From contig NZ_WTKU01000001.1 in the NCBI RefSeq assembly GCF_011378715.1, positions 372,001 to 436,000 of the forward strand: a DNA stretch of 64,000 bases, read 5' to 3'. Each line of letters begins with the position of its first letter. Position 1 is the stretch's first letter. This document shows, in pieces, positions 1-14,108 of this stretch. Under the pieces are notes generated by a model, which ran no database searches, was not told the origin of the DNA, and saw only the letters and a list, made by a program, of their open reading frames with translations. Made by a program: the position numbers and the translations under genes. The stretch comes from Psychromonas sp. SA13A. Its GTDB lineage: Bacteria; Pseudomonadota; Gammaproteobacteria; Enterobacterales; Psychromonadaceae.

Positions 1-1
1 G

Positions 2-754
2 GTAGGTATCGGAAATGATGTCGGATTGAAAAACTACGAACGTATTTTTTCTAGATCGCGTTATTTAGATGCGATTACGATCACTTTTGCATTTGCTTTT
101 ATAGTTGTTGTTGTACAAAACTTAATCGGGCTATTTTTCGCAACGGCTTTATTTAGGTTACCTAGGATCCGTAATTTTAGCCGTGCAGCTTTATTCACTC
201 CTGCAATGATGTCTTTTGTTATTGTTGGTTATGTATGGCAGTTCATCTACTCGCCATATAGTGGAGGCCTAAATGCAATGTTGGTTTCTATTGGTTTAGA
301 GTCATTTCAACGACCATGGTTAGGCGACCCATCAACGGCATTATTTGCAATTACTGCGGCTCATATCTGGATGTTTGTTGGTTATTCCTGCGCCATATTC
401 TTAGCAGGTTATGCCAATATACCTACCGATATTCAAGAAGCTAGCCGATTAGATGGTGCATCTTCATGGCAGCGTTTTTGTCATATAGAGTTTCCACTTT
501 TGGCGCCAAGCATCACTATTAATATCGTATTAGCAACCATTGGTACATTAAAGACCTTTGAACTCCCTTTTATCATGACCGGTGGTGGTCCTGCAGGTGC
601 AACACGAACTTTAAGTCTAGAAATTATGACCAATTTATTTGGTCGTTATAAATTTGGTTTCGCAAGTGCACTTTCTATTGTCATGCTTATTGTGATTGTT
701 GTGGTTGTAACCTTAATGAATAAATACCTGCGCAATAGGGAGAACAACACATGA
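2..754 (+). CDS. Sugar ABC transporter inner-membrane permease, MalF/UgpA type (5' end outside window)
   Basis: Inner-membrane subunit of a CUT1-type carbohydrate importer. The reading frame is open from base 2 and the first in-window start (a TTG at 26) lies inside the conserved stretch GLKNYERIF that precedes the second membrane segment in MalF/UgpA proteins, so the true start is upstream of the window and about 50 residues are missing. Several hydrophobic segments are visible, and the cytoplasmic EAA loop that docks to the ATPase is clear (EASRLDGASSWQRF, then PLLAP). Its stop overlaps the start of the next permease by 4 bp (ATGA), so the two are translationally coupled. The sugar transported cannot be read from the permease; the binding protein is presumably upstream, outside the window. 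Confidence 0.9.
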   Translation, partial: VGIGNDVGLKNYERIFSRSRYLDAITITFAFAFIVVVVQNLIGLFFATALFRLPRIRNFSRAALFTPAMMSFVIVGYVWQFIYSPYSGGLNAMLVSIGLESFQRPWLGDPSTALFAITAAHIWMFVGYSCAIFLAGYANIPTDIQEASRLDGASSWQRFCHIEFPLLAPSITINIVLATIGTLKTFELPFIMTGGGPAGATRTLSLEIMTNLFGRYKFGFASALSIVMLIVIVVVVTLMNKYLRNRENNT

Positions 755-1632
755 GTATCTCCATGAATAAATCTTCATCAGGATCCCCAAAAGGTAACGG
801 TATGAAATTCACTGGTAAAACCGTATTTTCGGCTTCTGCGAATGTGTTTGTACTATTCCTCGTTATTGCGATGCTCATTCCTGTTGCCTATATGATTATG
901 ATGTCATTTAGAACCGGTTCGGAAATTGCACAAGATCCACTTGGTTTCCCGACTAGCTTATACTTTGGCAATTACATCAATGCCATGGATAAAATGAATT
1001 ATTTCCGTAGTGTAGTAAACTCGCTTGGCATTACCTTGTCTGTCACGGCATTAGTTTCATTACTTGGATCTATGGCTGCCTATCCTCTTGCTCGTCGTAC
1101 TAATGGTTTTTCCAAAGCGGTGATCATGTTAGTTTCCTTGGGTCTTGCGACTCCGAACTTTGTAAACATCACGCCTATTTATATCATCTTTCGGGATTTA
1201 GGTTTATTAGACAGTTACGTCGGTATTATTATTGTTTTTACCGCGTTGAACTTACCTTTATCTATTTTCTTTTATACCGGATTTATAAGCTCAGTTCCTA
1301 AAGAGCTAGAAGAAGCGGCACGTTTAGACAACTGTAGTAACTGGCAAATATATTGGCACGTGATCCGCCCTTTACTTGGTTCGGCTACAGCAACGTTATC
1401 GCTATTTGTGATGTTGATGGTGTGGAATGACTTCATATATCCACTACTTCTGTTAACAGATGAAAGTAAATTTACTGTGATGATTTCAGTTTATCGATTT
1501 GTAGGTAATCGAAGTATTGAACCAGATATGCTTTTCCCAGCAGCAGTATTAGGGTCATTACCGTTATTAATACTATTTGGATTTTTCCAACGTCGTATTT
1601 TGTCTGGTGTAACTGCAGGTGCAGTGAAATAG
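751..1632 (+). CDS. Sugar ABC transporter inner-membrane permease, MalG/UgpE type
   Basis: Second membrane subunit of the CUT1 importer, 293 aa, the normal family length. The first roughly 30 residues are polar, followed by six predicted membrane helices; the EAA loop is present (ELEEAARLDNCSNWQIY, then IRPLL). It pairs with the upstream MalF-type permease (4-bp overlap) and with the ATPase gene 93 bp downstream. Family knowledge: the two permeases form the heterodimeric channel and the EAA loops contact the MalK-type ATPase dimer. The substrate is unknown. Given the galactoside genes later in the window an oligosaccharide is plausible, but that is inference only. Confidence 0.92.
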   Translation: MSISMNKSSSGSPKGNGMKFTGKTVFSASANVFVLFLVIAMLIPVAYMIMMSFRTGSEIAQDPLGFPTSLYFGNYINAMDKMNYFRSVVNSLGITLSVTALVSLLGSMAAYPLARRTNGFSKAVIMLVSLGLATPNFVNITPIYIIFRDLGLLDSYVGIIIVFTALNLPLSIFFYTGFISSVPKELEEAARLDNCSNWQIYWHVIRPLLGSATATLSLFVMLMVWNDFIYPLLLLTDESKFTVMISVYRFVGNRSIEPDMLFPAAVLGSLPLLILFGFFQRRILSGVTAGAVK

Positions 1633-1725: not shown

Positions 1726-2823
1726 ATGGCTAATATTAATTTAAAAAATGTCACTAAAAGCTTTGGTGATGTAAAGATAATTCACGGTATAGACTTAGAT
1801 ATTAATGATGGTGAATTTGTTGTATTTGTTGGACCATCAGGCTGTGGTAAATCTACATTATTAAGACTGATTGCCGGTTTAGAAGATATTACTGACGGCG
1901 AAATATATATTGATAATGACTTAGTTAATGATGTAGATCCTGCAAAAAGAGGCGTAGCAATGGTATTTCAAAGCTATGCGCTTTACCCACATAAAACCGT
2001 TGAACAAAATATGGGTTTTGGTCTAAAAATGAGTGGCCATGACAAAGCATTCATTGATAAACAAGTTGCGATTGCAGCCAAGTCATTACAACTTGAAGAC
2101 TTGCTTAAACGCAAACCTAAAGCTTTATCAGGGGGTCAACGTCAACGCGTTGCAATAGGACGAGCCATTGTTCGTAACCCTAAAATATTCTTGTTTGATG
2201 AGCCATTATCCAATCTAGATGCGGAGCTAAGAGTAGATATGCGTTTACATATAGCTAAGCTTCATCAAGAACTAAAAAATACGATGGTTTATGTTACACA
2301 TGACCAAGTAGAAGCGATGACATTAGCCAGTAAAATAGTCGTATTAAGAGCGGGCCAAATTGAGCAAGTTGGTTCGCCACTGGAGCTTTACAATAAGCCA
2401 GGTAACTTGTTTGTAGCGGGTTTTATAGGGTCACCAAAGATGAACTTCATACCTTGTACAGTAGAATCTATTGATGAGCAGTTTATCAAGCTAGCCATAA
2501 TAAATAGCCAACCTATTTATTTACCTAAAACATATAAAAATTTGGTTGATAAAGTCGCTATAGGCAAAAACCTTACCCTTGGTATTCGCCCTGAGCACAT
2601 ACAAATTAATGATAGCCTACCAATTAAGCTTGATTTTCAGAGTGAAGTTGTAGAACGTTTGGGTAATAGTACTTACCTCTTTGGTCAAGCTGCTGGTATT
2701 GATGGCTTCCGCGTACATCAAACGGGTGATAGTGAAATTGCACCTTATCAGAAAATTGTATTAAGCTTTGACGTCGAAAGTTGTCATCTATTTGATGATA
2801 AAGAGCTTTCACTAACGAGCTAG
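1726..2823 (+). CDS. Sugar ABC transporter ATPase, MalK/UgpC type
   Basis: ATP-hydrolysing subunit that energises the importer encoded just upstream; 365 aa, usual for MalK/UgpC. Walker A is GPSGCGKST near residue 38, the Q-loop follows in VFQSYALYPH, the ABC signature is LSGGQRQRVAIGRA near residue 135, Walker B is IFLFDEP, and the H-loop is VTHDQVEAMT. After about residue 235 comes a C-terminal regulatory/TOBE region (FIGSPKMNF, GIRPEHI), typical of the CUT1 ATPases that service di- and oligosaccharide systems. A good ribosome-binding site is not obvious, but the AGGTGAG run at 1711-1717 is suitably placed. A rho-independent terminator follows the stop codon. Confidence 0.95.
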   Translation: MANINLKNVTKSFGDVKIIHGIDLDINDGEFVVFVGPSGCGKSTLLRLIAGLEDITDGEIYIDNDLVNDVDPAKRGVAMVFQSYALYPHKTVEQNMGFGLKMSGHDKAFIDKQVAIAAKSLQLEDLLKRKPKALSGGQRQRVAIGRAIVRNPKIFLFDEPLSNLDAELRVDMRLHIAKLHQELKNTMVYVTHDQVEAMTLASKIVVLRAGQIEQVGSPLELYNKPGNLFVAGFIGSPKMNFIPCTVESIDEQFIKLAIINSQPIYLPKTYKNLVDKVAIGKNLTLGIRPEHIQINDSLPIKLDFQSEVVERLGNSTYLFGQAAGIDGFRVHQTGDSEIAPYQKIVLSFDVESCHLFDDKELSLTS

Positions 2824-3543: not shown

Positions 3544-4536
3544 TTAAGTTCTTTTCATTGCAACCGTCATGGCGAATACAATAATCAGCCCTTTACTAAC
3601 AAGCTGGTAAAAATAAGGCACGCCTAACATGTTTTGACCGTTTAAGACTAAAGCAACAATTAGCGTTCCTAGCAATGTTCCTGCAAGTCGCCCTTCACCA
3701 CCTTTTAAGCTAGTACCACCTAGAATAACCGCGGTTAATGCATCAAGTTCATAACCATTACCTGCAGCTGGAATACCTGCATATGTTTGGGCTGCAAGTA
3801 AAATACCCGCGATACCGGCAAGTAGAGCCATAATGCAATAGACTAAAATTCGAGTTTTGACGACATTGATACCCGATAAACGTGCGGTCTCTTGGTTGTT
3901 ACCAATAGCATAAACATTACGACCAAATTGCGTATATTTCATCATAAATGCAATGATCACCAATACCGCTATCATAATCACAATAGGAGCAGGAATACCT
4001 ACGATAGAGCCTGTCCCCATAAAACGGATAATTTCTGATTCGAAAGGTTGAGGCTGGCCACCAATGATAATATAAGCAATACCACGTACTAAGCTCATAC
4101 TACCTAGAGTAATAATAAAAGGGTTAATCTTTAATACCGAGATAAAGAAACCATTAAATAAACCAACACTGATAGCACCAACAAAAGTAAGCATTAGAGA
4201 AATGGTTAAGCCTAATCCTGCGTTAAGGCTGACACAGAGTATTACACTACAAAATGCGACCACTGAACCTACTGATAAATCAATACCATCACTGATCAGT
4301 ACAACGGTCATACCAAAAGAAATAATACCAATGACGGCTGTGCCTAATAAAATATCTTTGAAATTGGTGATAGTGAAAAAATATGGGCTCAGATAAGAGA
4401 GCACCATAATGAGCACCACGCAGGCAATAGATAATTTAGCTAAATAACTAGATGTTAATAACTGAAAAAGAGAATTAAGTGGTTTTTTAGCCACTAATTC
4501 TTCACTTGTCGTGGTTGAATTTGGGTTATTACTCAT
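3544..4536 (-). CDS. Ribose/galactose-type (CUT2) ABC transporter permease, RbsC-like
   Basis: Single permease type of a CUT2 monosaccharide importer, 330 aa. After a polar N-terminus of about 30 residues there are around ten hydrophobic segments; the family-conserved regions are present (GMTVVLISDGIDLSVGS near residue 75, GRNVYAIGNN, and GGTSLKGGEGRLAGTLLGT near residue 280). CUT2 permeases homodimerise, so one gene suffices. Its start overlaps the end of the ATPase gene by 4 bp, giving the order binding protein - ATPase - permease on the minus strand. The location next to the sugar-acid catabolic operon and a shared operator upstream of the binding-protein gene suggest that it imports the sugar degraded by that operon. 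Confidence 0.92.
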   Translation of the reverse strand: MSNNPNSTTTSEELVAKKPLNSLFQLLTSSYLAKLSIACVVLIMVLSYLSPYFFTITNFKDILLGTAVIGIISFGMTVVLISDGIDLSVGSVVAFCSVILCVSLNAGLGLTISLMLTFVGAISVGLFNGFFISVLKINPFIITLGSMSLVRGIAYIIIGGQPQPFESEIIRFMGTGSIVGIPAPIVIMIAVLVIIAFMMKYTQFGRNVYAIGNNQETARLSGINVVKTRILVYCIMALLAGIAGILLAAQTYAGIPAAGNGYELDALTAVILGGTSLKGGEGRLAGTLLGTLIVALVLNGQNMLGVPYFYQLVSKGLIIVFAMTVAMKRT

Positions 4537-6068
4537 TGTGCGACTCCTAATTCTTGCTCTGTATGAATTCCATTCATTGCCAAATAAATATCGTTATGAT
4601 CATATTCGCTACGTGTAAACTCTTTAAATATTTCACCTTTATAAATAGTAATAATTCGGTCAGACACATGCATCAACTCAGTGATATAAGAAGATGTATA
4701 AAGAATGCCTCTGCCTTCTGCTGCAATTTCTTGAATTAATTTATTAACATCAAGTTTGGCAGCGACATCAATACCAGCCGTAGGCTCACACATAATTATT
4801 ATTTTAGAGTTGAGTTGTAACCACTTTGCAATAATGGCTTTTTGTTGATTTCCGCCACTTAAGTTTTTAATGACTTTTTCTTCTGATTCAGTTTTTATAT
4901 TTAATTTTTCAATAAAAGATCGTGAATCAAGTACCTCTTGGTTATTTTTGATCAAAGAAAATACTTTGTTTTTTTGTCCATTTGGAATGCAAATATTATC
5001 TTTCACACTAAGTTCAAGAAACTCACCATTTGATTGCCTATCATCAGAAACAAAACCTAATCCATAGTTAATAGCATTAATTGGGTTATTGATTTTGGCC
5101 TGCTTTCCTTCGATTTCAATTTCACCAGAAATTCGTTTTTTCAGCCCATAAATACTTTCAAAAACATCTTCAACACCAGAACCACCTAAACCTGCAAAAC
5201 CAAGGATCTCTCCCTTGTGAAGTTTGAAAGTAACATTCTTAACATTAGCAACATTAAGGTTCTTAGCTTCTAACAACACTTCATCTGATACTGATGTCTG
5301 AGAACTATCATTAATATCTTTATGATGCTCAAACTCGGTTTGATCAGTAATGCCGCTCATACTTTCAATAATCCGATCGGCTGAGAAATCTTTTTTATCG
5401 CCTTCAACGATATTGCTACCATCACGAATAATGGATATTTTATCGCATATCTCTATGACTTCTTTTAATCGATGGGAAATGAAAACAACGCTACAACCTT
5501 GGGATTTAAGTTTGTTCATCAACTTAAACAATCGCTCTACATCACCTTGACGAAGTGTTGTGGTCGGCTCATCCATTAATAATATTTTCGGATTTTTTGA
5601 ACAAGCTTTTACTATTTCTACCAATTGCTTTTCTTCCGCAGATAACTCAGAAATTAATGCCTTACAGTCAATATTCAACTCCAGCATTTTTAATAAACTA
5701 GTGGCATCTTCATTCATTTTTTTGAAATCAACGATGCCATATTTTTTGGGCATATTATCTAAAAATATATTTTCAGACACTGTCATATAAGGCATTAACC
5801 GACGATGTTGAAATATAATACTAATACCCAGTGCCTGTGCTTTTTGTGGATTAATATTGTTAATTTTTTCTCCATTAACAAAAATCTCTCCAGAGTCTGG
5901 CGCATAAGCTCCGTATATAACATTTAATAAAGTCGATTTCCCGGCACCATTTGATCCTACTAATCCAATAATTTCACCTTTATTAAAATTAAGAGAGATC
6001 CCTTTTAATGCTTTGGTACCATCAAAGCTTTTAACAACATTGTTAATTCTTAGTGCTGTATTATCCAT
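4533..6068 (-). CDS. Ribose/galactose-type (CUT2) ABC transporter ATPase, RbsA/MglA-like, two nucleotide-binding domains
   Basis: 511-aa double ATPase. The N-terminal domain has Walker A GSNGAGKST near residue 38 and Walker B ILLMDEP; its signature motif is degenerate (LSAEEKQLVEI where many relatives have LSAGQQQ). The C-terminal domain lacks a normal Walker A, as usual in RbsA/MglA (GLGGSGVEDVFE), but keeps LSGGNQQKAIIAKWL and a Walker-B-like IIMCEPTAGID. This asymmetry, with one canonical and one decayed site, is known for the family. Encoded between the binding protein (104 bp gap holding a stem-loop) and the permease (4-bp overlap). Confidence 0.94.
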   Translation of the reverse strand: MDNTALRINNVVKSFDGTKALKGISLNFNKGEIIGLVGSNGAGKSTLLNVIYGAYAPDSGEIFVNGEKINNINPQKAQALGISIIFQHRRLMPYMTVSENIFLDNMPKKYGIVDFKKMNEDATSLLKMLELNIDCKALISELSAEEKQLVEIVKACSKNPKILLMDEPTTTLRQGDVERLFKLMNKLKSQGCSVVFISHRLKEVIEICDKISIIRDGSNIVEGDKKDFSADRIIESMSGITDQTEFEHHKDINDSSQTSVSDEVLLEAKNLNVANVKNVTFKLHKGEILGFAGLGGSGVEDVFESIYGLKKRISGEIEIEGKQAKINNPINAINYGLGFVSDDRQSNGEFLELSVKDNICIPNGQKNKVFSLIKNNQEVLDSRSFIEKLNIKTESEEKVIKNLSGGNQQKAIIAKWLQLNSKIIIMCEPTAGIDVAAKLDVNKLIQEIAAEGRGILYTSSYITELMHVSDRIITIYKGEIFKEFTRSEYDHNDIYLAMNGIHTEQELGVAQ

Positions 6069-6171: not shown

Positions 6172-7098
6172 TTAGTCGAAATTTAAGAACTCTAAATTTT
6201 CCTCAACATTATCTTTAGTCACTAAAACACCTGTTGTTTTAACAATAAACGGAACGGGACGGTTATGATTCAAAATATCTAAAAGAGTTACCGCAAGAGC
6301 GCCGTAATTGTATGAATGCATAGCAAACACCCCCGTAATTACTTTGTCTTTTTTTAATTCTTTATAGATACTCGTACTTTCCACCACTGTAACTGATTTG
6401 ATTTTCCCTTCCATATGCGCATTTTCAATACCGCGTACAATGCCTAATGCACTCGTATCTTCAATAGAAATAAAACCTTTAATATCTGGGTTTGCTTGAA
6501 TAGTTGCAGCCGTCCAGTTCATTGCTTTAATAGTGTCGTAACCTGGACCAGCCTCTGTAACTACTTTGATTTCTGGATATTCTGCAAATGCTTTATAGAA
6601 ACCTTTTACGCGGTCTTCTGATGGTGGGATAGGATCTGGAAATTTATTAATAGCAACTTTACCTTTACCACCAATAGATTCAGCTAATTGTTTAGCTGCA
6701 AAATAACCCGCAGCAACATCATCACCACCAACTTGGCTTTCAGCTTTTGAATCAGGCTGAACTGAATCCATAGTAACTACTTTCATTCCAAGAGAATGAG
6801 CTAGTTCAACACCTGCAACACCTGCAGCTTGTGTGGTTGAGCCTAAGATTAAAAGCTTTGCTCCTCTTTTTGAGAAGTTTCTAATAATTTCTAACTCTTT
6901 TACTGGGTCATCATTTGAAGATGCATCCATGAAATCATAACCTAATCGCTTTGCATTTTCTGAAGCACCACGTAGCATGCTTTGTTGAAATGAATCCGAT
7001 TGATTATGCTGCATCAAAGCAATGACTTCAGGAGCAGCAGTCGCATTGAGACTAAAACCAGCTATTGCAGCGATCAATAAAGTTGATAGTTTTTTCAT
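6172..7098 (-). CDS. Periplasmic sugar-binding protein of the CUT2 importer (RbsB family)
   Basis: 308 aa with a clear signal peptide (MKKLSTLLIAAIAGFSLNATAAP, cleavage after the AxA motif near residue 22). The mature part is a type-I periplasmic binding protein: ALMQHNQSDSFQQSMLRGASENAKRLG, with later GVAGVELAHSLGMKVVTMDS and DIKGFISIEDTSALGIVRG, the usual ribose-binding-protein segments. It is the first gene of the importer operon; an operator-like palindrome lies about 205 bp upstream of its start. The ligand is not predictable from sequence; the neighbouring enzymes point to a galactose-derived or anhydro-galactose sugar. Confidence 0.93.
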   Translation of the reverse strand: MKKLSTLLIAAIAGFSLNATAAPEVIALMQHNQSDSFQQSMLRGASENAKRLGYDFMDASSNDDPVKELEIIRNFSKRGAKLLILGSTTQAAGVAGVELAHSLGMKVVTMDSVQPDSKAESQVGGDDVAAGYFAAKQLAESIGGKGKVAINKFPDPIPPSEDRVKGFYKAFAEYPEIKVVTEAGPGYDTIKAMNWTAATIQANPDIKGFISIEDTSALGIVRGIENAHMEGKIKSVTVVESTSIYKELKKDKVITGVFAMHSYNYGALAVTLLDILNHNRPVPFIVKTTGVLVTKDNVEENLEFLNFD

Positions 7099-7304: not shown

Positions 7305-7320
7305 TTCCCATATAGTGGAA
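7305..7320. promoter_or_regulatory. Operator copy 1 (TTCCCATATAGTGGAA)
   Basis: Imperfect palindrome TTCC-N8-GGAA in the 525-bp gap upstream of the importer operon. It matches two further copies in the 10.4-10.7 kb divergent promoter region (TTCCCACATGATGGAA and the inverted CTCCCATATGATGGAA). The rest of the gap (7099-7550) is very AT-rich and shows no gene. Confidence 0.65.
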
Positions 7321-7550
7321 CAAAATTGATCTAGATTAATTATTATCGATAAATCTAAGAAAAATATTGATTTTTAAATCTTACTAAGAAGTGTGATAAC
7401 TATTTTTTAAATATGAATTTAAGTTGGTGAGAAATTTAAATAAAGAAGGTGAAATAAGAGGATTGATTAGATGACAAAGAGACGCTACTGAAAATTAAAA
7501 AGACACATCAACTCAAATCATAAGCTATTGTTTATTAGTTAAAATTAAAT

Positions 7551-7579
7551 TTTATAGGCTAGGTAGACTAGCCTATAAA
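7551..7579 (-). terminator. Terminator of the kinase/aldolase operon
   Basis: An 11-bp stem (TTTATAGGCTA / TAGCCTATAAA, 7-nt loop) followed on the minus strand by a T-rich tract, 45 bp after the aldolase stop. It separates the catabolic operon from the importer operon, which therefore has its own promoter. Confidence 0.7.
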
Positions 7580-7623
7580 TAATAATAAATAGTGCAATTA
7601 AAATAGACTATTTGATTCTTTTT

Positions 7624-8262
7624 TTAATTAAGACTTTCATTATAAGCAGTAACAAATGCTTTGGCATTGTTACGAATTTCATCATCACTCATGGATGGAG
7701 AATATAAAGCAGATCCTAAACCAAAGCCTAATGCGCCGAGATCTAAATAAGGTTTCATACTTTCTATGGTTGGATTGATACCACCAACAGGCATACAAAT
7801 TGTCTTCGGTGGAAGTACCGATTTTAATGCTTTAAACCCATCTAAACCCAACGCGGAAACCGGGAAAATCTTTATACCAGTTGCACCAGCAGCCAAAGCG
7901 GAAAAAGCTTCTGAAGGTGTAGCAATACCAGGGAATACTGCGCAGCCTGCAGCTGCAGATAAATGGACAACTTCTTGATTAAAATTAGGTGTTACCACTA
8001 AGTTGGCACCCGTCGCAATCACTTGTTTCGCCTGCTCGCCGGTTGTCACTGTACCTGCACCGACTAAATATTCGTCTCCAAATTTTTCAACTAACTTCTT
8101 AATACTCTCAAGCGCATTTGGGCTATTTAATGGTACCTCTATCATAGTGAAACCTTCACTAATTAGGATTTCCGTCACGCGTATTACTGCATCTGATTCT
8201 ACCCCTCTAATAATTGCAATAAGAGGTAAATGGTCTTCTAACTTAAACTTATTTTTTAACAT
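7624..8262 (-). CDS. dgoA: 2-dehydro-3-deoxy-6-phosphogalactonate aldolase (KDPGal aldolase, DgoA type)
   Basis: Class I aldolase of the KDPG/KDPGal family, 212 aa. It splits the 6-phosphate of 2-keto-3-deoxygalactonate to pyruvate and glyceraldehyde-3-phosphate in the cytoplasm. The general acid/base glutamate is in MIEVPLNSP (E42), the Schiff-base lysine in IKIFP (K131), with GAGTV, VTPN, PVGGIN and GLGSALY at the expected places. The DgoA-like motifs (EVPLNSP, GLGSALY) favour KDPGal over KDPG, though the family is promiscuous. The ATG has a good GAAGGTGAT ribosome-binding site and lies 14 bp inside the end of the kinase gene, so the two are coupled. It is the last gene of the operon. In the carrageenan literature the equivalent enzyme is called DauD. 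Confidence 0.88.
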   Translation of the reverse strand: MLKNKFKLEDHLPLIAIIRGVESDAVIRVTEILISEGFTMIEVPLNSPNALESIKKLVEKFGDEYLVGAGTVTTGEQAKQVIATGANLVVTPNFNQEVVHLSAAAGCAVFPGIATPSEAFSALAAGATGIKIFPVSALGLDGFKALKSVLPPKTICMPVGGINPTIESMKPYLDLGALGFGLGSALYSPSMSDDEIRNNAKAFVTAYNESLN

Positions 8263-9190
8263 TATTAATCACCTTCTTCAGTTCTATCATGCCCTTAATG
8301 AAACAATCATCACCATTAACATAAGTATTTTTTATACCAAACTCAGAACAAGCAAGTTGATAGGAACGGCATAAATTTTCACTGCCAACTAAATAAAGAT
8401 GCTCATCCGTTTCATTCATCGTGTTTTTTAATGCGCTTAACTCTTTGCCTATTAACATACCTGACAAATACTCTAATACCTGATCATCAGACAGGTTATT
8501 AAAGAGTCGATGGGTTCTAACCAAAAATAATGCATTACTTAGCAGCCCTGATTGTCCTTCATTAAGCCCTCTAATAAATGCTTTCCCAAGCTCATGGGGC
8601 TGAGGTAGTTCAGATAAGCCTCGACCTAAAATCGAATATTGGGACAATATAGAGTAGAGCTCACCTGTCATATAAGTTGAAAATGAGCTTAATTTCCCAT
8701 TTTTCATAACCGCATGTTTACTATGAGTACCTGGTAATATTGATAAAAAAGAAGTAGATTCAAGCAGATAAGAAAGGCCAATTAATTGGATTTCTTCACC
8801 GCGCATAACATCATATTGATCACCGTTCGATTGATGGCTAACCCCGGGAAAAATAACAGCCGACGCCCCCCACGGTAATAAAAATTGATAAGCAGTTGAA
8901 GCAAGGTTAATTAAGTCAACGGGCGTAGCTTGATAATTTACATCATGCCAGCCTTGTTTTGAGCCAACCATACCCGCCATGAAAATAGGCAAACTTTTAA
9001 ACTCTGCTAACCATCCAGATAATATTTCCTCTAGTTGCTTTGCAAAGCCTCCCTCCTTCACTTGTAGTAGACCTAATTTTTCTTCTTTTTTATCAACAAC
9101 ATCATTGTTTGCATCCATAGCGAATACTCTAAAATTTGTTGTTCCCCAGTCTATGATCAACCAACTTATTTCTCGTTTGTTTAAATTCAT
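8249..9190 (-). CDS. dgoK: 2-dehydro-3-deoxygalactonokinase (DgoK family)
   Basis: 313-aa sugar-acid kinase of the DgoK family (usual length about 290-310). The N-terminal phosphate-binding signature is WLIIDWGTTNFRVFAMD, followed by a family-typical FMAGMVGSKQGW and, near the middle, LPGTHSKHAVMKNGKLSSFSTYMTGELYSIL. It phosphorylates 2-keto-3-deoxygalactonate at C6, providing the substrate of the aldolase encoded with a 14-bp overlap downstream. The AAGGG ribosome-binding site 7-8 bp before the ATG supports this start. It is the middle gene of the minus-strand operon, 39 bp after the cycloisomerase gene. Confidence 0.9.
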   Translation of the reverse strand: MNLNKREISWLIIDWGTTNFRVFAMDANNDVVDKKEEKLGLLQVKEGGFAKQLEEILSGWLAEFKSLPIFMAGMVGSKQGWHDVNYQATPVDLINLASTAYQFLLPWGASAVIFPGVSHQSNGDQYDVMRGEEIQLIGLSYLLESTSFLSILPGTHSKHAVMKNGKLSSFSTYMTGELYSILSQYSILGRGLSELPQPHELGKAFIRGLNEGQSGLLSNALFLVRTHRLFNNLSDDQVLEYLSGMLIGKELSALKNTMNETDEHLYLVGSENLCRSYQLACSEFGIKNTYVNGDDCFIKGMIELKKVINNVKK

Positions 9191-9229
9191 TTCAGACCCT
9201 TTAATTAAAGTGAAAATAATTTTATTAAC

Positions 9230-10375
9230 TTAATTCACTTTATATTTGTCTATGATTTCTCTATTCACTTCGACACCAATACCCGGTAATTTAGATATCT
9301 GAACTTTTCCATCTTTTAGCTTGATCCCATCAAAAATAAGATCCGTTCTAAATGGGTGAGACGATTGATCAAACTCAAGCATGGGTTCAAGGGGATTAAG
9401 AGATAATGGCGTGGCAGGAATGGAAGCAATAAATTGTAAAGATGCGGCGATACCAATACCAGACCCCCAAACATGAGGAATCATCATGGTATTGTGCGCT
9501 TGAGCCATTGCAGCAATTTTTTTACATTCTGTAATACCACCTGAAGAACATAAATCTGGCTGAACAATGTCTAGTGCACTAGCTGCAAACCAAGGACGAT
9601 AACCAGTTTTACCAAAAATTTGTTCTCCTGCGGCAATATAAGTTTTAGATAAGTTTTTTATCTGTGCATAACCTTGCAGATCTTCAGGTGCTAGTAGCTC
9701 TTCAAGAAAGTAAGGATTAAACTCTTCCGTTTCTTTTATAATTCGACGTGCAGCACCAACATTATAAGCACCATTCGCATCGGCCATAATCTTAATATCA
9801 TTACCAACGGATTCGCGAATCGCTTTAATGAACTTGATATCTTGTTCAACACCAAAGCCAATTTTTAACTTAAACGCAGAAAAACCTTTATCTACATATT
9901 GCGCCGCTTCTTCAATGGAATCTTCTGGATATTTACCATTTTCTACTCGATAAAATCCTGTTGCATAGGGCGTTACTTCGGTTCTGAATGCACCACCAAT
10001 AAGCGCATGAATAGGTTTATTTACTGTCTTGCCCATAATATCCCATAGCGCAATATCAACACCACTCATCGCATTGACGGCAGCGCCACCTTGGCCATAT
10101 GGACGGGTGTGGTTATACATTTCTTCCCACAACACCTCGACGTCAAAGGGATCTCTATTCAATAATATTTTTTTAAATATATGACTAATAAATGCAGCAG
10201 CAATATGTGGAGACTGTAGGCCATGACATAGAGATTCACCCCAGCCAGTTACACCTTTGTCGGTAACAATTTCAATAATAAGTGAGCTTCGTTCATGTAC
10301 CCATCCTTGTGAAAAATAGAAAGGTTGATCAAGAGGTACTGATATAGCGTGAGGAATAACATCTATGATTTTCAT
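9230..10375 (-). CDS. Enolase-superfamily cycloisomerase/dehydratase; probable 3,6-anhydrogalactonate cycloisomerase
   Basis: Mandelate-racemase-subgroup member of the enolase superfamily, 381 aa. Seen: the KxK pair (FKLKIGFG, K169/K171), metal ligands D199 (MADANGAY), E225 and E251 (AAGEQ), and the general base H301 in PHVWGSG. The stretches KIGFG, ILQPDLC-like IVQPDLC, HVWGSGIGIAASLQF and NPLEPMLEFD closely resemble, from memory, D-galactarolactone cycloisomerase (Gci) more than galactonate dehydratase DgoD, which lacks this His context. A cycloisomerase that opens an anhydro-sugar acid to 2-keto-3-deoxygalactonate fits the kinase and aldolase downstream. Start: the TTG at 10390 is in frame, but the ATG at 10375 has GGAAGAG at the right distance and is preferred. 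Alternatives: galactonate dehydratase or a lactone cycloisomerase. Confidence 0.75.
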   Translation of the reverse strand: MKIIDVIPHAISVPLDQPFYFSQGWVHERSSLIIEIVTDKGVTGWGESLCHGLQSPHIAAAFISHIFKKILLNRDPFDVEVLWEEMYNHTRPYGQGGAAVNAMSGVDIALWDIMGKTVNKPIHALIGGAFRTEVTPYATGFYRVENGKYPEDSIEEAAQYVDKGFSAFKLKIGFGVEQDIKFIKAIRESVGNDIKIMADANGAYNVGAARRIIKETEEFNPYFLEELLAPEDLQGYAQIKNLSKTYIAAGEQIFGKTGYRPWFAASALDIVQPDLCSSGGITECKKIAAMAQAHNTMMIPHVWGSGIGIAASLQFIASIPATPLSLNPLEPMLEFDQSSHPFRTDLIFDGIKLKDGKVQISKLPGIGVEVNREIIDKYKVN

Positions 10376-10491
10376 TTCATACTCTTCCAATTGATAAATT
10401 TATTGTTGGCTTATTATGTAAGTCAATATTATGGAGAGATGATAGTGAAAATATTGAGATCTAACTACCAATAAACCATCGTAAGAATACA

Positions 10492-10507
10492 TTCCCACAT
10501 GATGGAA
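10492..10507 (+). promoter_or_regulatory. Operator copy 2 (TTCCCACATGATGGAA)
   Basis: Same palindrome as at 7305, about 117 bp upstream of the cycloisomerase ATG. Flanking AT before and CAAA after are shared with copy 1, extending the similarity beyond the core. Confidence 0.65.
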
Positions 10508-10548
10508 CAAATCAGTTTTTTGTTAATGGGTTAGTATCAATTTTAATA

Positions 10549-10564
10549 TTCCATCATATGGGAG
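10549..10564 (-). promoter_or_regulatory. Operator copy 3 (inverted)
   Basis: Read on the minus strand this is CTCCCATATGATGGAA, differing from copy 2 at two bases. It lies about 123 bp upstream of the dehydrogenase ATG. Confidence 0.65.
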
Positions 10565-10686
10565 AAAACAAAAACCAAATAGGAAAAATGACTTCATTGG
10601 CTTATGCTAGAAAGCTAAAGATTATCTACTGATGCAGTCCTATAACACTTGATCACTGCAGTTTATTACAAGAGGATTTGAATATT

Positions 10687-12108
10687 ATGAAATATCAAAA
10701 AATGTATATTGATGGTGTTACTGTGGTATCGCCACAACAAATTGAAATTGTGAATCCCGCAACAGAAAATGTGATTACGAAGATATATAGCGCAGATAAA
10801 GAATATGCTCAAAAAGCATTAGATGCAGCAAAGAAAGCACAAAAGCCTTGGGCGAATACACCGATATCAGAGCGTGTAGCATGGATGAAAAAACTACAAC
10901 AAGCAGTCATAGAAAATGAAGAACTATTGCGCCAGTGTGTGCATGAAGAAACAGGAAAGACATGGGCCGGTACTGAGGAAGACTATCAATCATTAGTGGA
11001 TAGTTTAGGATTTTATTCCGAAGAGATTCAACGCCACGGTGTTACCCAAATTCCAGATATCGCAGGTACTCATAAACATACACTAAGTACTAAACCTGTA
11101 GGTGTTGTAGTTGCTTATTTATCATGGAATTTTCCATTATTAAATCTTGGATTTAAGTTAGGTCCTGCAATGGCAACAGGCTGCCCGATTATATTAAAAC
11201 CTTCATTAAAATCTCCCTTGTCAGCCTATGCTTTAGGTGCTATTTGTGAACAAATAGGTCTTCCTTCTGGCGTTGTTAATATTATTAGCGGTGATGATGC
11301 CGATATTGGCGATTACATCTCATCATCTAAAATTCCAGCAATGTTGACATTGATTGGGGCTATTAGTACCGGCATTAAAATTATGCAAGCAGGGTCAAGT
11401 ACTATTAAGCGTTACTCTATGGAACTAGGTGGAAACACCCCATTTATTGTTTATAAAGACGCAGATTTAGATCTCGCGGCAGACATACTAACCGCATTGA
11501 AATTTGGTAATGCAGGTCAAATCTGTGTAGCTCCCAATCGTATATTTGTTGAAGCAGCTATTGAGAAAGAATTTACAGCCAAAGTATTAGAACGAGTTAA
11601 AAATGTTGTTGTAGGTTACGGAAAAGACAGCAACGCAACAATGGGGCCATTGATAGATAAAGCGTCGAGAGAAAAGGTTCATGCTTTAGTAACTAACGCG
11701 GTTCAATCTGGGGCAGAACTTATTACAGGAGGGACTTTTGATGCTAAACAGGTTGGAGCATTTTACCCACCGACAGTACTAAGAAATGTAATAGATACTA
11801 TGCCAATTTACCAAGAAGAAGTTTTTGGCCCCGTTATTAGTTTGATTACGTTTGAACATGAAGATGAGGTTTTACAAAGAGCAAATGATACTGATACTGG
11901 ATTAGCTTCCTATGTCTTTACACAAGACCATGTTAAAGCAAATAATGCAGCGAATACGTTAGAGTTTGGAGAAATCCAAATTAATGGTGTTAAGTACGGT
12001 ATAGATTTACCCCATGTTGGCATTAAACAATCTGGTATCGGATGTGACTGTTCAAAGTATGCTTTGAATGATTACCTTTATCTGACACGTGTTACTGAGG
12101 TTATTTAA
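10687..12108 (+). CDS. NAD(P)-dependent aldehyde dehydrogenase; probable 3,6-anhydrogalactose dehydrogenase
   Basis: Aldehyde dehydrogenase superfamily, 473 aa from the preferred ATG at 10687 (ribosome-binding site AGAGGA 10 bp upstream; an in-frame TTG at 10678 is too close to that site). Catalytic residues: N148 (YLSWNFP), K171 (ILKPS), E246 (SMELGGN) and nucleophile C280 (GNAGQICVAPNR). The usual FTGS loop reads LIGA. It is divergent from the cycloisomerase-kinase-aldolase operon with shared operators, so it probably does the first step: oxidation of the open aldehyde of an aldose (3,6-anhydrogalactose, which cannot close to a pyranose) to the acid. Close generic relatives include lactaldehyde and succinate-semialdehyde dehydrogenases, so the substrate call rests on context. 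Confidence 0.72.
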   Translation: MKYQKMYIDGVTVVSPQQIEIVNPATENVITKIYSADKEYAQKALDAAKKAQKPWANTPISERVAWMKKLQQAVIENEELLRQCVHEETGKTWAGTEEDYQSLVDSLGFYSEEIQRHGVTQIPDIAGTHKHTLSTKPVGVVVAYLSWNFPLLNLGFKLGPAMATGCPIILKPSLKSPLSAYALGAICEQIGLPSGVVNIISGDDADIGDYISSSKIPAMLTLIGAISTGIKIMQAGSSTIKRYSMELGGNTPFIVYKDADLDLAADILTALKFGNAGQICVAPNRIFVEAAIEKEFTAKVLERVKNVVVGYGKDSNATMGPLIDKASREKVHALVTNAVQSGAELITGGTFDAKQVGAFYPPTVLRNVIDTMPIYQEEVFGPVISLITFEHEDEVLQRANDTDTGLASYVFTQDHVKANNAANTLEFGEIQINGVKYGIDLPHVGIKQSGIGCDCSKYALNDYLYLTRVTEVI

Positions 12109-12294
12109 AACTCTCGCTATTTCGCACCTATTTTTGATGGTGCTTAATAGCATTAGTAACCTATTCAACTATTCAATCTATGTAGCCAATGATAACCAAC
12201 ATTAGAATAAATAATCCCTATTGGAATCAGTATAAGACTTGGATTTATTGGTGGATTAGAAATACTGAAAGCTATCAAGAGGTATGAGTTCAAC

Positions 12295-12351
12295 TAGTTT
12301 ATAAAGGCACTGCTAGCTTACAAAGGTATAAATAGCTTATACAGATATAAA
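12295..12351. repeat. 19-bp tandem repeat, three units
   Basis: Units TAGTTTATAAAGGCACTGC (12295-12313), TAGCTTACAAAGGTATAAA (12314-12332) and TAGCTTATACAGATATAAA (12333-12351). It lies in the 410-bp gene-free gap 12109-12518, which otherwise shows nothing. Confidence 0.7.
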
Positions 12352-12518
12352 AAATAATTTAAATTTCAATAACATTAATGATTTACAGGGTCATAACTGG
12401 TGGATTCAATATTGAAGTACATAATGACTAAACAGCTATTTACTGAAAAAGCCCATAAAAATCACAATACAATATTTAACTTTTACATATTAACCAGAAA
12501 TGATTAATAATCATATTA

Positions 12519-12731
12519 TTACTTCTCTTTTTCAGGCCATACATAACCTACATTAATGCACCAGATGCCATCGGAAGGCACAACTAAACGATCGCTTCCT
12601 TTTGCATCCCAAACACGTGAGAGTAACTTTTTAAGCTTAACGATTAAGTTATGTTTTTTAAATGCTTGGTATCGGTTTGAATAACCTACATCTACTGAAT
12701 TAGGCACGGGTTTTAACTGTAGAATACTCAT
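12519..12731 (-). CDS. Small hypothetical protein, 70 aa
   Basis: Family not recognised. The ATG is preceded on the minus strand by AGGAG at an 8-bp distance, a strong ribosome-binding site, which is the main argument that this is a real gene. The protein is basic in its first half (KKHNLIVKLKKLLSRVW) and ends with an aromatic stretch (WCINVGYVWPEKEK); no signal peptide or membrane segment is seen, so it should be cytoplasmic. It stands alone, 411 bp after the dehydrogenase and oriented against it. It could be a small regulator or nucleic-acid binder, but nothing in the sequence proves a function. Confidence 0.5.
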   Translation of the reverse strand: MSILQLKPVPNSVDVGYSNRYQAFKKHNLIVKLKKLLSRVWDAKGSDRLVVPSDGIWCINVGYVWPEKEK

Positions 12732-13076
12732 AATTATCTCCTAGAATAAGTGTTAATAACGGTATACATACACTTTTAAAAGCTATTTATAGTTGAAGGT
12801 ATAATAAAGTAGCTAGTGTTTGTCGCTTATTAGCAATATAAGCAAAACTTATTCCAAAAGTAGCGTAAGGTTGATTATTAAATATAGAAAAAGCACTACA
12901 AGAAAGTTTATTGAATAAGAAGCCACACAAATAAGATAAAATAAAACAAATACTTAACTAACTTAACAACCCTTTTAATATGTTATTTCTTCATCGGTAA
13001 AACCCACTTAGTTTATAGTATTTTCCTATCTGTAAAAAATATTATGATTCAATAATAGAATAACATCTTCCAGTTT

Positions 13077-13120
13077 GGTGCAAATTAAGCGCAAAAATGG
13101 TGCGAAAACGGTACGAAAAT
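13077..13120. repeat. 11-bp tandem repeat, four units
   Basis: Degenerate units GGTGCAAATTA, AGCGCAAAAAT, GGTGCGAAAAC and GGTACGAAAAT in direct succession. The period is close to one DNA helical turn. The surrounding gene-free region 12732-14108 also holds the larger repeat at 13458-13781 and the promoter of the oxidase gene at its end. Confidence 0.6.
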
Positions 13121-13457
13121 ATCAATTAATTACGAAACGCTAGTAAATTAATGATCGACCATCTGGTAACGTTAGTTTTTTAATCGTTATGCTCTTCAAT
13201 ATTAAATCTGCCAAACAATAAAAGGCTAGAATATCTATCAAGCACTAAATAAAAACAACGCCGTTAATAAAGCCTTGGCTCCTACAAACCGACACCTTAA
13301 ATCAAATTTTATATTTAACCTCAGTTCGGACTAAGCAAAATGAGTCACACCGCTATTTTCGTGAATTTCTGCGTTGATTCATCTTACAATAACCTGTTAT
13401 TACTTCATTAAATAGCCTTGAACTTAACAAAACTAGCGACACTGCCTAATGTGCATA

Positions 13458-13781
13458 TATACCCGTTACCATTCAAGATGCAAAGTTCTGCAAGTTGTGA
13501 GACGAGTAGCTTCTAGGCAGAAAGTTGAAGATCTAACGAGTTCAATCAATACTTTCAAACAACAAAGATGCTTGCCTCACAACTTGCCCTGTGGGTCGTT
13601 AGCTCGAAAGCAATTCAGCGTTGCAACATTCGATAAGGACTAGCCATTTAAGATGTAAATACTTGTTTTTACATCTACCGGCAGAGGATTAACGTAGTTA
13701 ATCGCTCGATAGGTCATCTACGCCTTGCCTTGCTGTCCAAGCTAACAACTGAATAAAGCATATCGATTGATAACGGGTATA
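13458..13781. repeat. Dispersed structured repeat with inverted ends (TATACCCGTTA...TAACGGGTATA)
   Basis: A 324-bp element whose ends are inverted copies (TATACCCGTTACCA and TGATAACGGGTATA). Inside are further inverted repeats: CAAGTTGTGAG (13491-13501) with CTCACAACTTG (13576-13586), and a hairpin AGATGTAAA / TTTACATCT (13651-13676). No transposase is encoded; a 64-codon open frame inside has no ribosome-binding site and is not regarded as a gene. Related ends occur at 27073-27159, and the left-end motif recurs at 19739-19763. This is compatible with a MITE-like non-autonomous element. Confidence 0.6.
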
Positions 13782-14050
13782 GCTTTATGAATTTAAATAT
13801 AAAGACGCTCTCATTATCCAGAATTGTAGTTAATTATTTAAGAGTCTCCAAAGCAATATAGAGCCTTATAATTTTGTGTAATGTGATCACTTAACATTTC
13901 AAGAAAATGCTTAAAAAAACACAACAAAAACGCAACATATTGATAACAAAGTTATTTTTTTTGAAATGTATGTGTCACATTAAAATAGTCACAAACAATC
14001 GATTATGCAGATTGAACAAAACTATTGACGAACACAATTGCTTATAGTAG

Positions 14051-14089
14051 TTTCGCATTTCGAAAGTAATATTTTACAATGCAGAACAA
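14051..14089 (+). promoter_or_regulatory. Putative IclR-type operator/promoter element before the FAD oxidase
   Basis: TTTCGCATTTCGAAA (14051-14065) is a perfect TTTCG-N5-CGAAA palindrome. It is followed by ATTTTACAATGCAGAACAA (14071-14089), which matches 18 of 19 bases upstream of dhaK (25417-25435). Family knowledge: IclR proteins bind short palindromes of this general kind; assignment to the IclR gene at 24512 is inference. Confidence 0.6.
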
Positions 14090-14108
14090 CTATTAGAGAG
14101 ATACGCCA

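Follow-up and report, generated by a model that had tools for sequence, protein, structure and literature searches.

We have analyzed a 64,000-nucleotide stretch of the Psychromonas sp. SA13A genome (4.57 Mb, 51 contigs), hereafter the window, which starts at C1:372001. Four neighboring genes in it encode an aldehyde dehydrogenase (ALDH), an enolase-superfamily cycloisomerase (the 9230 protein), a kinase and an aldolase. These genes very probably make up a pathway for 3,6-anhydro-D-galactose, and with good confidence we read them as the part of an IclR-controlled salvage regulon for carrageenan-derived oligosaccharides that handles the monosaccharide. The best reading of the whole cluster is a scavenger of carrageenan oligosaccharides fed by ATP-binding cassette (ABC) importers, a variant of a known pathway and not a new kind of system. 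What is apparently new is a salvage regulon that is ABC-fed, seemingly cytoplasmic and without GH16, and that has an operator of its own and a cycloisomerase recruited separately. The gene content, the DauA orthology, the lack of hydrophobic N-termini, the shared operator and the absence of GH16 were computed here.

The pathway genes and the extent of the unit

All four open reading frames (ORFs) are present and intact, with the domains expected of the enzyme types named in a first-pass annotation of the window (NF006600, PF05035, MR_MLE and PF00171). dauA, encoding the predicted 3,6-anhydro-D-galactose dehydrogenase (PF00171), lies on the forward strand at 10678..12108, with its ATG at 10687. 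The other three are on the reverse strand: the cycloisomerase gene, a putative functional stand-in for dauB, at 9230..10390 (both MR_MLE domains; relatives start at ATG 10375), a dauC-like 2-keto-3-deoxygalactonate kinase gene at 8249..9190 (DGOK PF05035, 270 bits; 35% identical to the Pseudoalteromonas carrageenovora kinase) and a dauD-like 2-keto-3-deoxy-6-phosphogalactonate aldolase gene at 7624..8262 (NF006600, 246.7 bits against a cut-off of 207; 43% identical to Escherichia coli DgoA). The genes stand as annotated, but the end-points once set for a four-gene unit, 7551..12108, are too narrow. They form the right end of 17 genes in ~23 kb, from an aldose-epimerase-like gene at C1:360928 to dauA at C1:384108 (~26 kb counting TctABC), and the left end lies outside the window, in a region treated here as L033 (C1:356001-374500).

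Against solved structures, the ALDH scores 541 bits with 6pnu and 6pop and 296 with the next entry; we take 6pnu to be the DauA entry. PMC6923384 reports a DauA structure and contains the code 6PNU once. The protein is 52.6% identical to P. carrageenovora DauA. In a tree it joins ten DauA rows taken from further dauA loci, and two paralogous ALDHs of the source genome, at 37% and 34% identity, lie outside the group. Two remote rows (G014 and L009) sit on very long branches, and branching inside the DauA group is mostly unresolved, so the claim is limited to group membership. By sequence, the window ALDH is a clear DauA orthologue. Two other matches to the DauA query, one in G014 (1.4e-91, 36%) and one at a second site of the source genome (5.5e-92, 37%), were left out of the DauA count. 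DauA was found in 1 of 24 genomes of the source's family, all of one genus, and in 1 of 369 of a class sample in which at most four candidates were scored per genome, so that further copies were possibly missed; it is too rare for broad statistics.

The cycloisomerase and its relatives

The motifs KLKIGFG and PHVWGSG, earlier noted as resembling galactarolactone cycloisomerase, were confirmed in the 9230 translation. Among solved structures the protein is closest to 4ggb/4hpn (295.8 bits) and 5olc (289.7 bits), with the third at 197; according to PMC5698469 these are AtGCI and the Zobellia DauB, respectively. The protein passes no NCBIfam cut-off, scoring 226 bits with the galactonate dehydratase model, which requires 311. 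In a 27-row tree it belongs to a separate 14-row clade (support 95/91; 92/88 in an earlier tree) with members from Vibrio, Alteromonadaceae, Halomonadaceae and one spirochaete. The AtGCI side of the tree, weakly supported (86/70, 80/74), holds the Zobellia-type DauB grouped with Flammeovirga and Persicobacter (100/100) and the P. carrageenovora-type DauB grouped with three alphaproteobacteria (100/100), and these two known DauB lineages are not mutual sisters. E. coli DgoD, 30% identical to the 9230 protein, falls outside at a split of 100/99 in this tree, which holds one DgoD and one P. carrageenovora homologue; the clustering with galactonate dehydratases that would have spoken against the earlier annotation was thus not seen. 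Two genes, that of L017 (two ORFs) and that of L021 (fragmented), were omitted from the trees and residue counts, and Roseib2_L055, part of the first tree, was removed from the 27-row tree on account of its long branch.

Catalytic residues of the cycloisomerase are named in PMC5698469. Lys166, Asp194, Glu220, Glu246 and His296, together with Trp298, are retained in the 9230 protein. Weighing against the proposed pathway is its placement in neither known DauB clade, with only 37% identity to P. carrageenovora DauB. In addition, the active-site Asp87 (AtGCI numbering), conserved in AtGCI and Zobellia DauB according to PMC5698469, is replaced by Pro in 14/14 rows of the clade and is Asp in 11/11 rows of the Gci/DauB side. 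To the same side of the balance belong the Vibrio members of the clade, which lie in operons for a tripartite ATP-independent periplasmic (TRAP) or TctABC transporter without DauA or GH127 at all five loci; the five genomes have no DauA match at 1e-90 and no GH127. Since it is in neither DauB clade and lacks Asp87, the 9230 protein would be like DauB in function at best; judged by its sequence, it is not an orthologue of known DauB. Assignment as a galactarolactone cycloisomerase was rejected because Trp298 is kept but Asp87 is not, and assignment as DgoD was rejected on the sub-threshold model score and the outside position of DgoD.

Catabolism of 3,6-anhydro-L-galactose from agar would draw on identical enzyme superfamilies. 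It is highly improbable here: the L-sugar cycloisomerase 5xd7 scores just 120 bits with the 9230 protein against 296 for the best relative, on which ground that assignment too was rejected, both the kinase and the aldolase belong to the galacto type, and the ALDH groups with DauA. The preference for the D-sugar expressed in the first-pass annotation therefore holds.

The Vibrio loci bear on another explanation, a dgo-like operon in which the 9230 protein would be a non-orthologous D-galactonate dehydratase supplied through an acid importer, with the ALDH and GH127 serving some other sugar. Four of them are operons of iclR, TRAP genes, an enzyme 79-81% identical to the 9230 protein, the kinase and the aldolase; the fifth, from V. 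sonorensis, has TctABC in place of TRAP. The Vibrio TRAP binding protein matches 7bbr (218 bits), presumably a sugar-acid binder. A close DgoD is absent from the five genomes (32-36% matches in four, the 9230-type enzyme included, and none at 1e-40 in the fifth), so D-galactonate stays a possible substrate there and, more generally, is a possible substrate of the clade. For the cluster in the window we consider this explanation improbable. Its ALDH is a DauA orthologue, dauA and the 9230 gene share a divergent promoter region with two predicted operators, and among the three MR_MLE_C proteins of the genome the 9230 protein appears closest to DauB. Only five alignment columns tell apart two sets of four enzymes, one from genomes with DauA (L005 being counted there by genome only) and one from genomes without it, which fits one activity in both settings.

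The 3,6-anhydro-D-galactose reading also draws on co-occurrence. Among 17 genomes with a cycloisomerase relative, a set that excludes those of L014 and L021, DauA (E <1e-150) occurs in four and GH127 over the cut-off in the same four: the source genome, an uncultured Alteromonadaceae, Aliagarivorans marinus and Alginatibacterium sediminis. As these genomes are akin, the co-occurrence is suggestive and not a probability. A. sediminis has CUT1, dauBCD, iclR, an S1b-like sulfatase, dauA, CUT2 and GH127 at 45-83% identity; S1a and the major facilitator superfamily (MFS) porter were not seen in the stretches read. The earlier pathway interpretation is thus supported by DauA orthology, linked GH127 and sulfatases, co-occurrence and the operator described below, while its cycloisomerase step would be carried by an enzyme outside both DauB clades.

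Other members of the clade occur in varied settings. In V. sonorensis (L017, 8513-11157) two ORFs make up the cycloisomerase gene, and tctA is likewise broken in two, through decay or sequencing error. Among the Halomonadaceae, TctC and TctA genes lie just upstream of the clade enzyme in L011, L012, L014 and L015, not in L013, and an ORF of ~600 aa lies downstream in L011-L013; no DauC or DauD match was found in loci L011-L015. The genomes of L011 and L012 also carry DgoD (59% identical to that of E. coli), so the role of the clade enzyme there may differ. In a Spirochaetaceae metagenome-assembled genome (L016, 1647-14017), the clade enzyme accompanies two sulfatases (24% identical to S1b) and TRAP and TctA genes.

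A predicted operator shared by the cluster

A 17-bp near-palindrome is common to the cluster's four regulatory regions. In the window, predicted IclR operators lie upstream of rbsB (TTCCCATATAGTGGAAC, 7305..7321, forward strand) and between dauB and dauA (TTCCCACATGATGGAAC, 10492..10508, forward strand); a second one between dauB and dauA (CTCCCATATGATGGAAT, 10548..10564, reverse strand) was outside the set used for matrix building and was picked up by the matrix. The matrix, built from the four sites and applied at a score threshold of 17, gave 11 sites at or above 17 in nine related loci unused in its building (187,030 bp); the 24 other loci, 541,686 bp in all, gave 0 sites. In 20 trials with column-shuffled matrices, each trial gave 0 or 1 match. 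The related loci were chosen by having the IclR system, L049 and L050 by their genomes having it; L005, with a cycloisomerase 78% identical and no IclR in its stretch, was placed in the other set and has no operator site. In Vibrio, sites lie upstream of iclR in L004, L007, L008, L009 and L017, by estimate ~90-115 bp before the iclR start as placed by homology. Aliagarivorans has two between dauA and iclR and one upstream of GH127, and Alginatibacterium two upstream of dauB and one upstream of GH127. We infer that IclR, encoded at L033:11468-12193, binds the operator, because iclR and the operator are conserved jointly.

The exact consensus pattern, written after the sites were known, has six matches in the 4.57-Mb genome, five of them in 15 kb belonging to the cluster and one elsewhere, inside a 448-aa ORF. 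Four points reduce the weight of this evidence. Discovery of the sites gave 8 mismatches in total against 9-11 in ten shuffled sets, which is weak alone; the threshold of 17 was fixed after the scores were known, with a top score of 15.1 for the other loci among the matches listed; the related loci are partly near-identical (L007/L008) or from the same genome (L006/L050, L010/L049); and with one mismatch allowed the pattern matches at 19 places, against 21 for a reversed control, so that only exact matches are informative.

Elsewhere in the genome, L086 (G000:C1:282001-294500) is a second sugar cluster, in which inspection by eye shows an IclR-type gene of its own, genes for a CUT2 importer, an SMP-30-like gene and several dehydrogenase-like genes. 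Its CUT2 ATPase gene is preceded, at a distance of 39 bp, by a palindromic near-match to the operator (C1:291829). The cluster is taken for a paralogous system.

GH127, sulfatases and the search for a carrageenase

Directly left of the window, a GH127 gene, a dagA candidate (L033:5915-7789), and two sulfatase genes, S1a (L033:7874-9403) and S1b (L033:12539-14092), are linked to the dau genes. The GH127 family includes known anhydro-D-galactosidases. The enzyme of this genome retains the Glu/Cys motifs seen family-wide, which we take to be catalytic. Identity is 73-76% with the enzymes of Alginatibacterium and Aliagarivorans, 47% with a Candidatus Epulonipiscioides enzyme and 37-39% with the four enzymes compared from dauA plasmids of Flammeovirga and Persicobacter; three GH127 proteins without a dauA link reach 29-31%, and that of Rufibacter, without a known dauA tie, reaches 37%. 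PMC5698469 places the surgeonfish symbiont Epulopiscium among bacteria with carrageenan polysaccharide utilization loci (PULs). In a plasmid collection, the best two of 239 GH127 records, among the best 20 listed, are two Bacteroidota dauA plasmids. Persico_L061a was found not to be a GH127 and was disregarded, though left in the tree.

Structural comparison of these enzymes counts against the proposed pathway. The nearest solved GH127 is 5mqo, deposited as a beta-L-arabinofuranosidase and corresponding to BT1003. Neither sulfatase has a close solved relative: S1a scores 133 bits with 7oz8, with the exo-4S-kappa sulfatase 6prm third at 108, and S1b scores 152 bits with 7oz8, with the exo-2S-iota sulfatase 6pt4 fourth at 148. 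PMC5698469 names BT1003 an aceric-acid hydrolase.

In the frames of S1a, S1b and GH127 no start codon is available upstream of the one used, and no hydrophobic N-terminus was found in any of the three by a hydrophobicity measure, which is not a trained signal-peptide predictor. Such N-termini are present in the cluster's binding proteins, in five tested P. carrageenovora and Flammeovirga sulfatases and in two Flammeovirga GH127 proteins. Judged by eye, the GH127 rows of the source's own clade have no signal peptide either, and no TonB/SusCD-type receptor was found among the cluster proteins scanned. Both sulfatases have the CxPSR motif at residues 50-51, and a protein at C1:488845, 53% identical to a radical-SAM protein (PF04055 and SPASM) beside the Aliagarivorans dauA, is taken for a sulfatase maturase. 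The unsecreted appearance of S1a and S1b, their CxPSR motif and the maturase-like protein together make cytoplasmic desulfation likely. Two more sulfatases without hydrophobic N-termini are encoded at L034 12406-16825 (G000:C2:57406-61825), where a look by eye at the neighboring genes suggests a regulator of the AraC type and a solute symporter; this may be a further system for sulfated sugars whose enzymes are not secreted.

Carrageenan had earlier been proposed as the source of the sugar, and a genome-wide check agrees with this in part. GH127 and sulfatases are linked to the pathway, but the GH16 model PF00722, which matches both tested P. carrageenovora GH16 proteins (64 and 54 bits), finds none genome-wide (GH82 and GH150 were not searched). 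PF02449 has no match in the genome, although whether GH167 fits that model is unchecked. As GH16 is lacking, other organisms may produce the oligosaccharides from which the sugar is drawn. Alternatively, the same pathway could be fed by the organism's own carrageenase of GH82, GH150 or a new family. The scope of the searches and the 10 sulfatase matches in the genome leave room for this, but we regard it as unlikely given the absence of GH16 and PF02449 matches and the lack of hydrophobic N-termini on the cluster's GH127 and sulfatases. PMC5698469 notes that the core system also occurs in species for which no carrageenase is known, and that these might feed on oligosaccharides already predigested.

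Transporters and neighboring genes

The CUT1 genes malE, malF and malG follow S1b in L033 and run on into the window. The malF-like permease gene (L033:15885-16754) begins left of the window and ends in it at 1..754 on the forward strand (PF00528; 69% identical to a permease of a Roseibium dauA cluster). It is followed on the same strand by a malG-like permease gene at 751..1632 (PF00528; 73% identical to a Roseibium CUT1b permease) and a UgpC/MalK-type ATPase gene at 1726..2823 (NF008653, 472.5 bits against a cut-off of 432). After CUT1, the gene order is rbsCAB and dauDCB on the reverse strand, then dauA on the forward strand. The CUT2 genes are an rbsC-like permease at 3544..4536 (PF02653; 80% identical to Alginatibacterium), an rbsA-like ATPase at 4533..6068 (family-profile matches; 73%) and an rbsB-like periplasmic sugar-binding protein at 6172..7098 (PF13407; 83%; hydrophobic N-terminus). 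In L033, the aldose-epimerase-like gene lies at 4928-5896 and an MFS sugar porter gene at 9489-11075; TctA, TctB and TctC are leftmost, beside the GH127 side of the unit. To the right of dauA, no ORF of more than 70 aa occurs until 14109 (12109-14108, ~2 kb), and the lowest G+C of the window, 32%, is in the 2-kb bin 12001-14000.

CUT2 is 73-83% identical to a set placed between dauA and GH127 in Alginatibacterium, CUT1 is 60-79% identical to the Alginatibacterium CUT1, and the Roseibium dauA cluster has a set matching malE, malF and malG at 49-73% identity. A plasmid search with RbsB gave nothing at 1e-30. With MalF, only four records matched at 1e-60, one of them a Jannaschia plasmid in a different setting; that plasmid, whose CUT1 relative is 66% identical, is not among the six records with a DauA match at 1e-100. 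The link of CUT1 to dauA is thus not exclusive, and exclusivity was rejected. The Jannaschia cluster (L101, NZ_CP081160.1, 12915-28676) combines CUT1 with two MR/MLE genes, an ALDH, two short-chain dehydrogenases, an alcohol dehydrogenase and a sugar kinase by annotation, perhaps an L-anhydrogalactose or L-fucose-like route. For each transporter of the cluster, the ligand named below has about an even chance of being right.

Proposed mechanism and comparison with known systems

All enzyme activities and transporter ligands in this scheme are predictions from homology and gene context. The CUT1 ABC importer would bring in small neocarrageenan oligosaccharides, and the CUT2 importer or the MFS porter would probably take up free 3,6-anhydro-D-galactose. 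The two sulfatases without signal peptides would remove sulfate in the cytoplasm, and a cytoplasmic GH127 would free 3,6-anhydro-D-galactose from the non-reducing end. DauA would oxidize the sugar to 3,6-anhydro-D-galactonate, the 9230 enzyme would open the ring to give 2-keto-3-deoxy-D-galactonate, and the kinase and aldolase would yield pyruvate and glyceraldehyde-3-phosphate. TctABC, a tripartite tricarboxylate-type importer beside GH127, may import the acid directly.

PMC5698469 describes a core system of dagA with dauA, B and D. In the Zobellia galactanivorans cluster ZGAL_3145-3159, described there, GH127 and S1 sulfatases likewise accompany dauA and the genes for cycloisomerase, kinase and aldolase, and its route also leads from 3,6-anhydro-D-galactose to pyruvate and glyceraldehyde-3-phosphate. 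Zobellia, however, uses a SusCD-like pair (outside the PUL) and an AraC regulator (PMC5698469) where ABC importers and IclR are found here, and its anhydrogalactosidases are periplasmic or membrane-anchored whereas the enzymes here lack a signal peptide; its cycloisomerase is in a separate clade. The Pseudoalteromonas CarPUL (PMC6923384; P. carrageenovora plasmid NZ_CP027525.1) resembles the cluster in its DauA and in an MFS porter (41% identical). Unlike the cluster, this plasmid stretch has GH16 enzymes, TonB receptors and sulfatases with hydrophobic N-termini; it also encodes glucose 1-dehydrogenase and SMP-30 proteins, no annotated GH127 and a cycloisomerase of another clade. More generally, the signal peptides on sulfatases and GH127 and the receptor that mark a secreted carrageenan PUL of the TonB/SusCD type are not found among the cluster proteins scanned here. 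E. coli dgoRKADT, for D-galactonate, shares a kinase, an aldolase and an enolase-superfamily enzyme but has no ALDH or GH127, and its DgoD is outside the 9230 clade. The dauA cluster on a Roseibium aggregatum plasmid (NZ_CP128603.1) is similar in dauA, cycloisomerase, CUT1 (MalF 69%, MalG 73%) and CUT2, and also has TRAP genes and a sulfatase without a hydrophobic N-terminus; it differs in its GntR regulators and P. carrageenovora-type cycloisomerase, and the stretch read has no annotated GH127, kinase or aldolase. No description of an ABC- or IclR-type carrageenan salvage regulon was found among the literature matches listed, a search to which subscription journals were mostly out of scope.

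Discussion

The cluster offers a concrete design for life on predigested oligosaccharides: uptake is by ABC importers, the sulfatases and GH127 are not secreted, and the operator marks out which genes belong to the regulon. We tentatively suggest a wider, three-level regulon, in which CUT1 would take up oligosaccharides, CUT2 the free anhydrosugar and TctABC or TRAP 3,6-anhydro-D-galactonate, with desulfation and cleavage in the cytoplasm and an independently recruited Asp87-to-Pro cycloisomerase as the hub; vibrios would have kept the acid level only, cross-feeding on acid leaked by carrageenan degraders. The results thus point to possible cross-feeding by vibrios at the level of the acid. 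They also suggest that Gci-like enzymes were recruited for the ring-opening step on more than one occasion, so that naming such proteins by their nearest named enzyme could mislead.

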